A stretch of DNA of 64,000 nt, from NCBI RefSeq assembly GCF_028885415.1, contig NZ_CP118527.1:2294001-2358000 (forward strand). Reading direction: 5' to 3'. Both the position numbers and the translations under genes were made by a program. The notes beneath the pieces are model-generated. The model ran no database searches, was not told the origin of the DNA, and worked only from the letters and a program-made list of their open reading frames with translations. Each line of letters begins with the position of its first letter. The stretch's first letter is position 1. This stretch comes from Streptomyces coeruleorubidus. GTDB taxonomy: Bacteria; Actinomycetota; Actinomycetes; Streptomycetales; Streptomycetaceae. Shown here piece by piece: positions 2,618 to 35,864 of this stretch.

Positions 2618-3903
2618 GGGATCCTCCCCGCTCCCGCGCCGCGGACCACGGCCCGGTCGGCCGCCTCGGCGCTGTCGATCTTCGTGTGCAGAGTGGGTGT
2701 CCAGCCCACGTCGGCGGTCAGGTCGCGTTCGCTGCCCGAGTTGTAGGCGTTGTGGATCGCGAGCAGGTCGACCGGGTAGCCGTTGAAGAGGGTGCCGCTC
2801 TGGTGCAGGGCGTTGCCGTTCCAGCTCTTGACCAGGTCGGCCGCCTCGACGTGGCCGGGCGTGGTGAAGGCGTTGTTCTCGGCGTAGAGGGCGGACTCGG
2901 TGCCCACGCCGAGGGAGTAGCGGTAGGGCGCGCCGTCGGGGACGACGTACCGGTTGTTGTAGAGGTGCACCTGGCCGAAGCGGACCCTTGGCGCGCGCTG
3001 GACGACCGACGTGAACTCGTTGTGGTGCAGGGTGACCCGGAGTCTGCCCCGGTCGCTCGTCGCCGAGTCGCTGTTGCCGATGAGCATGGCCTTGTCGTGG
3101 TCGGCGAACCGGCTCCAGGAGACGGTGACCAGGTCGGAGCCGTTGGTGATGTCCAGCAGGCCGTCGTGGCGCAGGTAGTTGCGGCCGAGGTAGGTGGGTT
3201 CCCTGTCGTCCGGGTGCCCCCTGTCGGAGAGCGTGACGTGGTCGATCCAGACGTGCGTGGCGCCGCGCAGCCAGATGTTGTCGTACGCGGTCTTCCAGTC
3301 GCCGAGGCCGCCGGTGTTGGGCTGCCAGACGGGGAAGCAGTCGTAGGCGTCGCGCAGGTCGAGGTTGCGGATGATCACGTTGTCCGCGTCCTTGACCTGC
3401 AGGCTGGCGCCCTTGAGCACCGCGCGGGAACCCAGCCCGACCATCGTGGTGTTGGAGCCGACGGTCAGCTCCACGCGTTCGGCCTGCCGGGCCGCCGACG
3501 CCTGGCGGGCCTCCTCCTGCGGGCCGCTGGGCTTGGCCGAGCCCCAGGTGCGGGGGTCGTAGGCGGCGAGGTACTTCTTCAGGCTGTAGCCGTCTGTGGC
3601 GTAGTCGGCGCAGTCCAGGCGGTCGCCGTCGTCGTCGGTGTTGGCGTCGATGGTCCCGGCGATCTTGATGATCTTCGGGGTGTCGCTGCCGCCGTCCAGG
3701 GCGCGCACCAGTTCGGCTCGGTCGGTCACGGTGTGGACGTGGGCGTCGTCGGCCGCGGCACCGCCGGTGGTGCCGCCCTCGGCCGCCGCCCAGCCGTCGT
3801 TCGCGGGCAGGGTGTCGCGGCTGATGTCCCGGGCCTCGGCGTGCGCGGGGACGCACAGCAGTCCCAGCAGGCCGGCGGCCACGACGAGGTGACGTGCTCT
3901 CAT
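2614..3903 (-). CDS. Secreted pectate lyase (polysaccharide lyase family 1)
   Basis: 429 residues with a Sec signal peptide (MRAR, a hydrophobic core, cleavage near AHA at 20-22). It cleaves polygalacturonate by beta-elimination outside the cell. PL1 hallmarks are present: VWIDH (218-222, calcium-site region) and RAPRVR (303-308, the RxPxxR motif with the catalytic Arg), in a long parallel beta-helix with regularly spaced Asn and aliphatic residues. The ATG at 3903 overlaps the stop of the upstream permease by 4 bp. An exported polymer-degrading enzyme co-translated with its importer genes is typical of Streptomyces plant-polymer loci. This is the strongest evidence that the whole cluster serves pectin. 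Confidence 0.92.
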   Translation of the reverse strand: MRARHLVVAAGLLGLLCVPAHAEARDISRDTLPANDGWAAAEGGTTGGAAADDAHVHTVTDRAELVRALDGGSDTPKIIKIAGTIDANTDDDGDRLDCADYATDGYSLKKYLAAYDPRTWGSAKPSGPQEEARQASAARQAERVELTVGSNTTMVGLGSRAVLKGASLQVKDADNVIIRNLDLRDAYDCFPVWQPNTGGLGDWKTAYDNIWLRGATHVWIDHVTLSDRGHPDDREPTYLGRNYLRHDGLLDITNGSDLVTVSWSRFADHDKAMLIGNSDSATSDRGRLRVTLHHNEFTSVVQRAPRVRFGQVHLYNNRYVVPDGAPYRYSLGVGTESALYAENNAFTTPGHVEAADLVKSWNGNALHQSGTLFNGYPVDLLAIHNAYNSGSERDLTADVGWTPTLHTKIDSAEAADRAVVRGAGAGRIP

Positions 3904-32407: not shown

Positions 32408-32476
32408 ACTAGGCGCGGACAAGGGTCAGGACAAGATCGTGGCCCGCACTCCCCACGCGGTGCGGGCCACGGTCTC

Positions 32477-34060
32477 TCAGGCCGCCCAGGGCCAGTCGGC
32501 GTCCCGGGATGCCTCGATCAGCGGCACCATCCGGAAAGCCGCGTCCGACAGGCCTCCGAAGGTGTGCCGATTCCCGGTGCCCGACGGGCCGTGGCCCGCC
32601 CGGTATCCGGCGAGGTTCCAGGTGTAGACCGGCACGTCGGCCGGGACCTGCTCGGTCGGGTCACCCCGGTGGTGGTGCGTGTACTGCTCGTCGGTGACGA
32701 TCAGCACCCGGTCGTGCTTGCGGTAGTGCCGGCGCACCGCCTCGGTGGTGTCGGTGCCGCCCAGGTCGCCGAAGCGGTCCAGGATCTTCAGCACCGACTC
32801 GCCCTCGCGGAACTTCACGCGGTCGCTCGTCGAGCCGAACTCGACCAGGTCCGCGCGCTCCGCCCGAAGCGCGAGCGCCGTGCCGAAGATCGCGGCGGCG
32901 TCTGCCCGGTTGAGCTCGGAGCGGTCGGACAGCCGCGACCAGAACATCGAGCCCGAGCGGTCCACGAGCACCAGCGTCCGGCCGGGCAGCGCGGGCACGT
33001 TGGCCAGCGAGTGGCCGAGCGCCCGCTCCAGCGCGTACGACCAGCGCAACGACGGCGCGTGCTGGTACGCGGCCAGGTACCGGAAGGGGAACTGCCGCGA
33101 GCGCGCGACCTCCGCCGGGTCGCTGATCCGCGCGGCGACCCGCTCGGCCACCTCGTCGGACACCCCGGCCTCGTCGAAGTTCCGCAGGTTGCGCACGAGC
33201 GCCATGGTGCCCATGGACGGGATCACGGCCTCCCAGGCCGCCTTGTCCATCGGCCCCTGGAGCCAGCCCGCCAGCGTCTCCCACGTCATCCCGGCCTCGG
33301 CCAGCCGCTCGGCACCGCCCTCGGCGGTCACGACCGCGCGCCGCTTGGCCACCGGCAGCGCCATCAGCTCGCGGTGCGCGGTGAGGACGCGGTCCGACGC
33401 GGGCGGCACCGCGGTGTCGGGGTGGTGCCGTCGGTCGAGGGCGTACCGGAACAGCTCGCCCTGCCAGGGCTTGTCCGGGTCCGGCGCGGCGTGCACGAGG
33501 TTGAGGACGTCGCCGAAGCGGTAGCCCTTGGAGGCGGTGTCGTACTTCAGCAGGGACTTGCCGTGGTAGAGACGGCGTACGGCGTCGGCGATGCCGCGCT
33601 TGACCGGCTTGGGCACGTTGCGGCCGTAGGTCGCGGTCCAGTAGGCGAGCAGTTCGCCGGGCTCGTCGGGCCGCTGGAGCACGGAGTCCACGACCTGCCG
33701 GTTGGACGGGCCGTCGGTCGCGCCCGCGTCCAGGCGGGCCTTGACGTACTCGGCGGCGCCGACGACGGAGGCCGTGCGCAGGTTGCCCTCACCGCGCAGC
33801 CAGCCGAGCAGGCCGGCCGTCCACGCCGGGTCGGTGACGGCGAGTTCGCGCACGAGCTTCGCGAAGCGGTCGTCGCGGTCGGCGCCGGTCTCGTAGAAGG
33901 TCTGCTGCGACACGAAGTTCGACACCGCGAGCAGAAAGAGCTCCGAGCGGGCGTCGCGCTCACGGCCACGGCCGCCCTCGTAGGTGCGCAGCACACGCCC
34001 GGTGGAGGTCACACGGGAGACGGGACGCGCCCGCGCCGCCTTGCTGTTGAATCGCGCCAT
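32477..34060 (-). CDS. rsr: TROVE-domain RNA-binding protein (Ro60/Rsr orthologue)
   Basis: 527 residues. The N-terminal two thirds are the HEAT-repeat-like TROVE ring that binds misfolded and Y RNAs (ELFLLAVSNFVSQQTFYETG; KPVKRGIADAVRRLYHGKSLLKY in part). The C-terminal third is a von Willebrand A-like domain with the MIDAS motif DRSGSM (367-372). In bacteria Rsr works with Y RNA and exoribonucleases in RNA decay and stress survival. ATG at 34060 with GGGGGAA upstream; the leader contains AGAATTCGGG twice. Two Y-RNA-like elements lie directly upstream on the same strand, the classic rsr/Y-RNA arrangement. An RtcB ligase is not present. Confidence 0.92.
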   Translation of the reverse strand: MARFNSKAARARPVSRVTSTGRVLRTYEGGRGRERDARSELFLLAVSNFVSQQTFYETGADRDDRFAKLVRELAVTDPAWTAGLLGWLRGEGNLRTASVVGAAEYVKARLDAGATDGPSNRQVVDSVLQRPDEPGELLAYWTATYGRNVPKPVKRGIADAVRRLYHGKSLLKYDTASKGYRFGDVLNLVHAAPDPDKPWQGELFRYALDRRHHPDTAVPPASDRVLTAHRELMALPVAKRRAVVTAEGGAERLAEAGMTWETLAGWLQGPMDKAAWEAVIPSMGTMALVRNLRNFDEAGVSDEVAERVAARISDPAEVARSRQFPFRYLAAYQHAPSLRWSYALERALGHSLANVPALPGRTLVLVDRSGSMFWSRLSDRSELNRADAAAIFGTALALRAERADLVEFGSTSDRVKFREGESVLKILDRFGDLGGTDTTEAVRRHYRKHDRVLIVTDEQYTHHHRGDPTEQVPADVPVYTWNLAGYRAGHGPSGTGNRHTFGGLSDAAFRMVPLIEASRDADWPWAA

Positions 34061-34156
34061 GATGAATTCCCCCGAATTCTTTACAGGTTCCCGAATTCTC
34101 TTCAGGTATCCGAGGGAAGCGCGCATGAGAGAGGTGAGTGCCCGAGAACAGAAGTC

Positions 34157-34261
34157 GGCGACGGACTTATCCGGATGCTCTGCCGATTGAGCTACAGCGA
34201 CCCGAAGTCGCTGACGGGACTCGAACCCGCAACATTCCGATCAAATGAAGTAACCGTTGCC
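34157..34261 (-). ncRNA. yrlA: Y RNA of the YrlA type with a circularly permuted tRNA-like module
   Basis: Read 5' to 3' on the minus strand. An outer stem pairs GGCAACGG (34261-34254) with CCGTCGCC (34164-34157) in 7 of 8 pairs, with an A-C mismatch at pair 4. Then ACTT/AAGT and CGGA/TCCG (anticodon-stem position). Inside is a tRNA core in permuted order: T arm GCGGG-TTCGAGT-CCCGT (34230-34214), acceptor 3' strand CAGCGAC, loop TTCGG, acceptor 5' strand GTCGCTG (34213-34195, perfect 7 bp), then TA and the D arm GCTC-AATCGGCA-GAGC (34192-34177) with GG in the loop. Bacterial YrlA RNAs are known to mimic tRNA and to bind Rsr. Ends are defined by pairing only; the transcript may be longer. Confidence 0.85.
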
Positions 34262-34307
34262 TGCGCACCGGGCACCCACCCCATGCTGCGCCTCCCGAGA
34301 TCAAGTC

Positions 34308-34349
34308 GGCGGCGGCGTCGGATTCTTTGGAAGAGAAGTAGCCGCTGCC
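34308..34349 (-). ncRNA. Second, short Y-RNA-like stem without the tRNA module
   Basis: Lies 46 bp upstream of the first element on the same strand. The stem GGCAGCGGC (34349-34341) pairs with GCCGCCGCC (34316-34308) in 8 of 9 pairs and has the same A-C mismatch at pair 4. The 5' block GGCAGCGGCTACTTC matches GGCAACGGTTACTTC of the neighbour at 13 of 15 bases, and the 3' block CCGCCGCCGACTT matches CCGTCGCCGACTT at 12 of 13. The loop of about 24 nt has a small TTCT/AGAA helix instead of a tRNA-like domain. It could be a second Y RNA or part of one longer RNA with two Ro-binding stems. Confidence 0.6.
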
Positions 34350-34421
34350 ATCGCACCGGGAGGTGCGTGACGTTGTGATCTCACTGTAGGAGGCGCGGTA
34401 CAGGACCTGCGAGCGAATTAA

Positions 34422-35864
34422 TTACCGCTTCTGCCGCTTCCAAGGACCGGTGATGGCGAGCAGGATGCCCGGGTCCTGGATGTTGGCGTAAAGGGTCTTG
34501 CCGTCGGGCGAGAAGGTGACACCGGCGAACTCGCTGTACTCCGGCTCCTCTTCGGTGCCGACGTTCAGGTCGTTGCGGGCGATCGGGTACGTGCGGCCGC
34601 TCTCGGTGGCGCCGAAGAGGTGCGAGACGCCCTCGCCGTCCTCGGCCAGGACGATGCCGCCGTACGGGGAGACGGTGATGTTGTCGGGGCCGTCGAACGC
34701 GCCGTCCTTGGACGGGTCGGGGTTCACACCGAGCAGGACCTTCAACGTCAGCGTCCGGCGCTTGGGGTCGTAGAACCAGACCTGGCCGTCGTGCTGGACG
34801 GGGCTCTCCTCGCGGGCGTACGAGGAGACGATGTAAGCGCCGCCGTCGCCCCACCACATGCCCTCCAGCTTGCGGGCGCGGGTGACCTCCCCGTCATCGA
34901 ACTGCTTGCGCACGGGCGTGGTACGGGCGTCACGGTCGGGTACGTCCACCCAGTCGACGCCGTAGACGGTGCCGGTCTTCGTGGCCCGGGACAGGTCGTC
35001 GACGAACCGGCCGCCGGAGTCGTAGCACTTGGGCGCCTGCAGGACGCCGGCGTCGTCGGCGAGCTCGCGGAACTTGCCGGGGCCGTACGCGAAGCCCTTG
35101 GGCGGGGTCCAGCGGTAGAAGAGGCCGTTGGGCTCGTCGTCGTCCTCGGTGAGGTAGGCGTGGCCGCGCCTGGGGTCGATGACGACGGCCTCGTGGTCGT
35201 AACGGCCGAAGAACTTCAGCGGCTTGGGGTTCCGGTTGGCGCGCCGGTCGCTCGGGTCGACCTCGAACACGTAACCGTGGTCCTTGGTCATGCCGTTGAC
35301 GCCGGCCCTGTCGGAGTTCTCCTCGCAGGTGAGCCAGGTGCCCCACGGCGTGCTGCCGCCGGCGCAGTTGGTGGAGGTGCCCGCGATGCCGACCCACTCC
35401 GCGACCCGTCCGTCGGGGCGTACCTCGACGACCGTGCAGCCACCGGCCGCGGCCGGGTCGTAGACGAGGCCCTCGGTGAGCGGCACCGGGTACTTCCAGT
35501 TGGCGCGCGGGCCCTTCAGCTCGTGGTTGTTGACGAGCAGGGTGGTGCCGCGGGGGCCGTCGAAGGTGGCGGTGCCGTCGTGGTTGGACGGCGTGAACTC
35601 ACCGGACTCCAGCTTCGTCTTGCCGCTGTAGGTGATGATCCGGTACGTGAACCCGGCGGGCAGGGCGAGGATCCCCTTGGGGTCGGGGACGAGCGGCCCG
35701 TAGCCCACTGAGTGCCGGGCGTCCGCCGCGCCCTCCGCACTGTCGGTGTCGTAGGACGCGAGGGCGTTCGGCGCGGTGGCGAGGGCGCCGACGCTGCCTG
35801 CCAGCGCGACACCGGCACCGGTGATCGCGGAGGTTCTGGCGAAGTCCCTGCGGGTGAGCGACAT
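34422..35864 (-). CDS. phoX: Secreted alkaline phosphatase, PhoX family
   Basis: 480 residues. The Tat signal SLTRRDFARTSA is followed by a hydrophobic stretch. PhoX (DUF839) motifs: VNNHE, GGSTPWGTWLTCEEN, GRYDHEAVVIDP, EGMWWGD, FDGPDNI, which carry the Ca/Fe cofactor ligands of this phosphatase family. It releases phosphate from organic esters outside the cell. A two-unit PHO box upstream (35933-35954) indicates PhoP control. Stand-alone gene; its start is followed closely by the interspersed repeat upstream of the PHO box. Confidence 0.9.
   Translation of the reverse strand: MSLTRRDFARTSAITGAGVALAGSVGALATAPNALASYDTDSAEGAADARHSVGYGPLVPDPKGILALPAGFTYRIITYSGKTKLESGEFTPSNHDGTATFDGPRGTTLLVNNHELKGPRANWKYPVPLTEGLVYDPAAAGGCTVVEVRPDGRVAEWVGIAGTSTNCAGGSTPWGTWLTCEENSDRAGVNGMTKDHGYVFEVDPSDRRANRNPKPLKFFGRYDHEAVVIDPRRGHAYLTEDDDEPNGLFYRWTPPKGFAYGPGKFRELADDAGVLQAPKCYDSGGRFVDDLSRATKTGTVYGVDWVDVPDRDARTTPVRKQFDDGEVTRARKLEGMWWGDGGAYIVSSYAREESPVQHDGQVWFYDPKRRTLTLKVLLGVNPDPSKDGAFDGPDNITVSPYGGIVLAEDGEGVSHLFGATESGRTYPIARNDLNVGTEEEPEYSEFAGVTFSPDGKTLYANIQDPGILLAITGPWKRQKR

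Follow-up and report, generated by a model that had tools for sequence, protein, structure and literature searches.

Between the rsr gene and a PhoX-type phosphatase gene of Streptomyces coeruleorubidus, the analyzed window (the whole stretch of DNA, 64,000 nucleotides) carries on its minus strand a previously unannotated RNA of the YrlA type, a kind of RNA that is itself known. We call this element Y3. Its structure, its conservation, and its linkage to and co-occurrence with rsr were confirmed by comparison with homologues, and it is very probably a bacterial Y RNA and a partner of the Rsr protein. This reading, already proposed in an earlier note made from the sequence alone, is supported by the permuted order of the tRNA-like parts, an acceptor stem closed by a short loop, the basal stem, the association with rsr, and double changes in four of the six helices. 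From these data we infer that Y3 is transcribed, which part of it binds Rsr, and what the partner and function of its tRNA-like head may be. Beyond the earlier note, the analysis yielded a second tandem unit, a longer RNA, a score that misses the Rfam threshold, and a head type that was exchanged between species. The elements of Y3 are as follows.

34136..34277, minus strand: YrlA-type Y RNA Y3, the rsr-proximal unit, in its full extent with the lower stem, as given by the alignment of 41 class-I homologues including the window
34269..34277, minus strand: 5' strand of the lower stem, GGGTGCCCG, pairing with 34136-34144
34136..34144, minus strand: 3' strand of the lower stem, CGGGCACTC, pairing with 34269-34277
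34254..34261, minus strand: 5' strand of the upper (Ro-proximal) stem, GGCAACGG, 7/8 pairs with one A-C mismatch
34157..34164, minus strand: 3' strand of the upper stem, CCGTCGCC, pairing with 34254-34261
34236..34240, minus strand: 3' strand of the anticodon-type stem (tRNA positions 39-43), followed by a 5-nt variable region at 34231-34235
34171..34175, minus strand: 5' strand of the anticodon-type stem (positions 27-31), forming 5 bp with 34236-34240
34214..34230, minus strand: T arm with the 5-bp T stem GCGGG/CCCGT, whose outermost pair is G-U, and the loop TTCGAGT
34195..34213, minus strand: acceptor stem of 7 bp, with the 3' strand CAGCGAC at 34207-34213 and the 5' strand GTCGCTG at 34195-34201
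34177..34192, minus strand: D arm of class I, GCTCAATCGGCAGAGC, with the stem GCTC/GAGC

Read from 5' to 3', Y3 runs from a lower stem of 9 bp through an internal loop, the upper stem and the anticodon-type stem to the T arm, the acceptor stem, the dinucleotide UA and the D arm. The permuted order claimed before (T arm, acceptor 3' strand, UUCGG, acceptor 5' strand, UA, D arm) was borne out by reading the minus strand and by aligning homologues, and the tRNA lengths of the stems (T stem 5 bp, a perfect acceptor of 7 bp, D stem 4 bp) and the T loop are read directly from the letters. The acceptor strands form 7/7 Watson-Crick pairs closed by the loop TTCGG (UUCGG in RNA) at 34202-34206, UA precedes the D arm, and both a T loop UUCGAGU and a D loop containing GG are present. 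The closest D-arm matches are tRNA-Lys and tRNA-Asn of the same genome, with Trp close behind. The anticodon side had been described as opened and running into an outer stem; the strands indeed lead into the basal stems with no anticodon loop between them, but an anticodon-type stem of 5 bp is kept and carries compensatory changes. Similarly, the proposed extent of 34157..34261 does belong to the RNA, and its end at 34157 is, as stated, on the strand of rsr and 97 positions upstream of the A in the start codon ATG (34060), but the 9-bp lower stem extends the element to 34136-34277.

That Y3 is real was settled by the alignment of homologues, not by the fold of the single sequence or by its Rfam score. 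The best 80 of 286 Streptomyces rsr loci together with the window were used as a sample of 81 close loci. In the 41 class-I rows (window included), 98.7% of the cells of the named structure were paired, i.e., the predicted stems are conserved, and sliding the partner by one to three columns left just 33–50% of the cells paired. Double changes were found at eight pairs, amounting to 42 cells vs. 8.7 in shuffled alignments (0/500), with a covariation score of 0.152 vs. 0.085 after shuffling. The compensatory changes anticipated for other Streptomyces were thus present in four helices, namely the lower stem (9 pairs, 98.9% of cells paired, double changes at 2 pairs), the anticodon-type stem, the acceptor stem (99.7% of cells paired, double changes at 3 pairs) and the D stem. 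The other two were neither supported nor contradicted: the upper stem, in which 100% of the cells of its 7 pairs are paired and double changes are absent, varies only from A-U to G-U, the T stem hardly varies, and covariation is neutral for both. The T stem was paired 5/5 in all 80 heads parsed by pattern, where the parse demanded at least 4 pairs and one head (L044) came from an upstream unit. For the anticodon-type stem, 168/175 cells were paired in 35 unique class-I modules, compared to a mean of 152.9 and a maximum of 160 after shuffling. RNAalifold yielded the same class-I helices unaided.

A covariance search with the Rfam model for YrlA (RF02553), suggested in the earlier note, did match Y3 over the full model (1-114/114, E = 7.3e-8), but the score of 44.7 bits stays below the curated cut-off of 69, which is an operational threshold and not a biological feature. 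Y3 was the only one of seven matches in its own genome (E ≤ 10) that does not lie at a tRNA gene, and the second-best match was a tandem tRNA-Asn pair with 36.5 bits. Because this pair approaches the score of Y3, the proof has to be comparative, and a sub-threshold score of about 36–45 bits was rejected as sole proof. At E ≤ 1e-5, the model matched 17 of 100 genomes of the phylum, none above the cut-off, and also E. coli among the controls; none of 19 actinomycete rsr loci reached the cut-off. Folding of the single Y3 sequence gave no signal beyond chance (z −1.0). Neither the T arm nor the D arm forms in the minimum-energy fold of this sequence (−64.2 kcal/mol), and the comparative structure evaluates to −51.0 kcal/mol; because RNAalifold does not recover the alternative pairing of the head, we gave the alignment more weight than the thermodynamic fold.

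The gene downstream of Y3 and the repeat behind it are located as follows.

32480..34060, minus strand: rsr, coding for a Ro60/TROVE protein, with the start codon ATG at 34060 and the stop codon at 32477-32479
32434..32475, minus strand: GC-rich inverted repeat, terminator-like, directly 3' of the rsr stop codon

The rsr product matched the Pfam TROVE family with 52.6 bits (cut-off 23; 5.4e-14) over 63 of 442 profile positions, and a profile built from 21 relatives recovered Rsr of D. radiodurans (2nvo, 3.3e-13) and Ro60 (1yvp, 2.5e-12). Because it scored only 23.8 bits vs. a cut-off of 900 with the NCBIfam Rsr equivalog NF041674, we regard this Rsr, judged from its sequence, as a divergent branch. 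The inverted repeat is a likely terminator; a search in both orientations also returned it as a match to mir-9209, well under the cut-off.

Y3 is accompanied by a second unit, and the two lie in tandem on the minus strand between rsr and the PhoX-type phosphatase gene (34425-35864).

34291..34363, minus strand: second Y RNA unit Y2, headless, in which a short hairpin replaces the tRNA-like head on the frame of Y3
34383..34388, minus strand: candidate -10 element TACAGT of an array promoter, picked by the pattern TANNNT
34409..34419, minus strand: candidate upstream promoter block AATTCGCTCGC, a conserved block before the candidate -10 element

The frame common to Y2 and Y3 consists of a 5' part, CCGGTGCGNNGGCNNCGG-N-UACUUC, and a 3' part, CCGNNGCCGACUU..UCUCGG. 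In an alignment of 52 Y2 sequences, 98.4% of the cells were paired, with 16 double-change cells vs. 3.4 after shuffling; further pair types were not above the shuffled alignments (304/500). The covariance model R1 scored Y2 with 104.6 bits in its own genome, Y2 itself being part of the model; in R1 the small hairpin is shifted by one register, and the pair counts for Y2 refer to the right register. A further class-I unit upstream was found by a strict pattern in 47 of the 81 loci and is absent from the window. A TANNNT hexamer lay within reach in 117 of 134 upstream regions, and 86 of 116 distinct regions read TA(G/C/A)AGT; this pattern served to select the hexamer but not the AATTCG block that precedes it. 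TACAGT lies 29 bases ahead of the Y2 frame, as in 22 of the 116 distinct regions, and 13 bases is the distance in 60. A generic promoter scan found none before the array, and no terminator-like site was found between Y3 and rsr on the same strand. Of the two tandem Y units, which would be transcribed together with rsr or immediately ahead of it, Y3 is the last.

Among 199 Streptomyces genomes, 99 contained rsr, 95 a Y2-type unit as detected by R1, and 93 both. The unit was therefore present in 93/99 rsr-positive vs. 2/100 rsr-negative genomes (Fisher p 1.5e-46, a value overstated because related species are not independent). The two RNA-positive genomes without rsr (G169, G185) retain rsr fragments behind the Y RNA: one locus has a 22-residue C-terminal piece with 77% identity, the other has two blocks, and the adjacent Y unit is still recognizable. 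Of the six rsr-positive genomes without an R1 match (G043, G058, G146, G080, G142, G176), the first three were read and do contain Y units, identified by eye or by the frame pattern. At least one frame was present in all 81 close loci. The pattern also found it in 39 of 40 more distant Streptomyces rsr loci (second rsr copies included), the fortieth (L129) carrying a different Y unit by eye, and upstream of rsr in 14 of the 15 loci read from other actinomycete genera (21 of 296 such genomes contain rsr), L255 having none; chance matches of the pattern numbered 4 in each of two control sets, of 45 and 80 segments. Copies of rsr with 72–74% identity were also seen on four large Streptomyces plasmids.

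A further Y RNA away from rsr occurred in 9 of the 199 genomes, all nine also containing rsr, which points to an RNA acting in trans. Six of these were read. In L224 the distal Y RNA lies between metK and priA (NCBIfam), the sole case with identified neighbors. The Y units off rsr in L222, L223, L224, L227 and L228 lie at about 2900-3350 (oriented), seemingly in one setting, and in L222 and L228 visual inspection showed another unit, whose D arm (ATGGCCGAGTGG) is class-II-like. L221 contains headless and class-I Y units far from its own rsr, in a setting that differs from metK-priA.

The tRNA-like head is not the same in all relatives. After parsing the T arm and acceptor by pattern in 80/81 loci and assigning the classes after inspection, the rsr-proximal head was of class I in 42 loci, of class II, resembling tRNA-Leu, in 37, and absent in two (L015, L044). 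Leu was the top D-arm match for 37 of 78 parsed heads of the close set, 36 of them by a wide margin; the exception, L078 (0.25), has an insertion. Leu was also the best whole-module match for 29 of 36 class II modules, whereas class I can only weakly be identified with an amino acid in this way (0.73–0.82 vs. 0.60–0.79 when ordinary tRNAs for different amino acids are compared). The class II alignment showed 96.4% paired cells and 52 double-change cells vs. 16.8 after shuffling. Because gaps are misplaced in alignment A3 where a row has a short variable region, such cells were set aside, and a script was used to count the stem: 161/165 cells of the anticodon-type stem were paired vs. a shuffled mean of 124.6, where the partner was the best-pairing 5-mer, a choice that favors the observed over the shuffled count. 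Most class II heads further possess a long variable arm with a helix of its own. A helix of at least 5 bp was formed by 18 of 21 long variable arms as parsed (shuffled letters: mean 3.4, at most 11) and by 20 of 23 when two arms were lengthened by hand; in nine unique class II modules the variable region is short.

Mapped on an rsr DNA tree (89 rows, quick IQ-TREE, SH-aLRT only), parsimony required 16 switches between the two classes, of which supported branches alone enforced no fewer than 13. Because shuffled labels needed 28 changes, head type also follows kinship. Each switch may represent a new conversion or the recombination of an existing allele. In ten hand-picked pairs of near relatives with different heads, not all independent, the 5' frames were 0.88–1.0 identical and the heads 0.58–0.69, with values of 0.71–0.99 for the upstream stretch, 0.67–0.90 for the 3' frame and 0.46–0.94 for the leader. 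Over all pairs, heads were 0.62 identical across vs. 0.80 within classes, compared to 0.93 and 0.95 for the 5' frames.

Further head types are suggested, more weakly than Leu, by D arms of other actinomycetes, Streptomyces or phages, which appear Gln-, Glu- or initiator-Met-like. The head of L127, a divergent Streptomyces unit, is apparently initiator-Met-like as read from the D arm, and its best whole-module match was Met (0.80). Gln-like D arms were found in L248 (0.74 vs. 0.35 for the next match, and 0.74 vs. 0.61), L251 (0.58 vs. 0.35) and L249 (0.63 vs. 0.55), and Glu-like ones in L250 (0.80 vs. 0.60), L247 (0.65 vs. 0.50) and L249 (0.45 vs. 0.30, not relied on); segments without a D arm score 0–0.16 in this matching. 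Some arrays are mixed: in addition to class I, L248 and L251 have a Gln-like head and L247 has a Glu-like one. By eye, units of L140, L155-L157, L243 and L246-L250 have a T arm and an acceptor-like stem, the D arm being absent.

Relatives of Rsr were also present in 88 of 50,697 phage records, six of which were read. Four of these phages (Alone3, BRock, pSt2308 and Atuin) have rsr within tRNA gene arrays, VanLee has a single annotated tRNA near it, and in Kela rsr follows an RNA ligase gene. In the Streptomyces phages Alone3, BRock and pSt2308, four Y units were recognized by eye upstream of rsr, of which the frame pattern found 3, 2 and 2, respectively; it found none in the stretches of VanLee, Kela and Atuin (3/6 phage records match). 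All six stretches gave RF02553 matches below the cut-off, which are weak alone, as tandem tRNAs also match. Judged by eye, the D arm of the unit closest to rsr is Gln-like in Alone3 but of class I in BRock. An annotated tRNA-Ser(gct) of Alone3 (L257:2274-2347) and an annotated tRNA-Arg(tct) of Gordonia phage VanLee (L260:2204-2275) overlap Y units upstream of rsr, and RF00005 gave no match at either with E ≤ 0.01; both are probably mis-annotated tRNA mimics.

In known systems, YrlA holds Rsr by its basal stem and binds PNPase through its tRNA-like domain, and it is modified by DusA and TruB, according to the part of PMC8394870 drawn on here; in RYPER of D. radiodurans, a Y RNA is the partner of Rsr, as described in the portion of PMC6181284 used. 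The lower and upper stems of Y3 with their conserved internal loops (CCGGTGCG..., UACUUC, ...GACUU..UCUCGG) would form the Rsr-binding frame, from which the permuted head would project and offer a tRNA elbow to a tRNA-binding partner. This partner may be PNPase as in the RYPER model, or enzymes acting on tRNA.

Two accounts of what the head does can be weighed against each other; the one discussed second leaves the identity of Y3 as a Y RNA untouched. The head may be a general tether for PNPase in RNA decay of the RYPER type, for which any tRNA elbow would work and identity would drift freely; we regard this as plausible, if short of probable. The constancy of the T arm favors it, with five of five T-stem pairs in all parsed heads, as do the actinomycete units that by eye retain only T arm and acceptor, but it leaves unexplained the coexistence of headless units and the preservation, through compensatory changes, of distinct D arms and entire class-II variable arms. 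Retention of the class-II arms and the head exchange instead favor heads that serve as exchangeable decoys or adaptors, directed at enzymes attacking, modifying or repairing particular tRNAs and swapped in conflicts with tRNA-cleaving toxins or phages, with Rsr holding or disposing of the catch, a possibility we consider rather doubtful. It would fit the class switches on a conserved 5' frame, the different heads side by side in L247, L248 and L251, and the phages, where rsr and Y units lie within tRNA arrays, an RNA ligase gene is present in Kela, and the nearest head differs between Alone3 and BRock. Hughes et al. 2020, in the part of the article considered, proposed that YrlA may competitively inhibit an anticodon nuclease (PMC7790460), and phage TROVE proteins were placed in RNA repair in the section of PMC7824862 used. 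The exchange could, however, be neutral recombination among strains, and the heads lack an anticodon loop, so that they could bind anticodon nucleases but not be cut by them.

Other explanations dispense with a separate Y RNA. The element lies directly upstream of rsr on the same strand, and with no terminator-like site in between it could act in cis as a 5' leader controlling the translation of rsr, e.g., in autoregulation by Rsr; this is improbable in view of the nine genomes with a further Y RNA far from rsr, the tandem repetition of units, and heads exchanged on a constant 5' frame. A decayed tandem tRNA pair, the junction of which imitates a permuted tRNA, is suggested by the RF02553 score of the tRNA-Asn pair, but is contradicted and very improbable: basal stems and frame are conserved, the RNA co-occurs with rsr, and ARAGORN finds no tRNA within the window, just as the earlier note had expected of a tRNA search. 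All stems have tRNA length, the anticodon-type stem included, as would suit a permuted tRNA gene that is circularized and matured into a working tRNA. This is hardly credible, as a conserved two-part stem occupies the place of a 7-nt anticodon loop, the acceptor strand is not followed by CCA, and headless units share the frame; the conserved basal stems contradict it.

YrlA, or bacterial Y RNA-like A (RF02553), was reportedly described by Chen et al. in 2014 and Wang et al. in 2018. YrlA and Y3 share the basal stem, the permuted T-acceptor-D domain and a gene beside rsr. In contrast to YrlA, Y3 scores under the Rfam cut-off and is arrayed with a headless unit, and its relatives carry class I, Leu-like and apparently initiator-Met-, Gln- and Glu-like heads. 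In the permuted tRNA genes of algae and archaea, the 3' half likewise precedes the 5' half, but Y3 differs from them in having no anticodon loop, a closed acceptor and extra conserved stems. As in the yrlB-yrlA pair of the Salmonella rsr-yrlBA-rtcBA operon, described in the part of PMC7790460 consulted, two Y RNAs lie beside rsr; in the window they are upstream of the gene, and neither RtcA nor RtcB was found among the five neighboring proteins scanned. The Y RNA of D. radiodurans is likewise an Rsr partner and has a T-arm-like hairpin in its head, as far as the consulted text of PMC6181284 goes, whereas the head of Y3 is fully tRNA-like. YrlA had been predicted earlier by genome scans in mycobacteria and a Mycolicibacterium prophage, likewise actinobacterial, and the passages of those accounts used here mention neither arrays nor head types nor Streptomyces (PMC9569102, PMC8190616). 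Neither arrays in Streptomyces, nor Leu-like heads, nor a change of tRNA identity on an unvarying Ro frame came up in the titles and abstracts covered by the literature search.

Units of this kind are overlooked by the Rfam cut-off (0/19 actinomycete loci), and two phage records label them tRNAs. Near relatives that differ mainly in the head, such as L087 (class I) and L083 (Leu-like) with identities of 0.93 upstream, 1.0 in the 5' frame, 0.90 in the 3' frame and 0.94 in the leader vs. 0.66 in the head, provide a natural experiment on whether tRNA identity, the shape of the elbow or the mere T arm matters. As a tentative and on balance unlikely generalization, the Ro60 loci of actinomycetes and actinophages may be arrays of exchangeable tRNA look-alikes, in which one Rsr-binding frame would carry generic class I heads, Leu heads with their long variable arm, or initiator Met, Gln or Glu heads, swapped probably as tRNA-specific toxins, nucleases or phage tRNA strategies shift.
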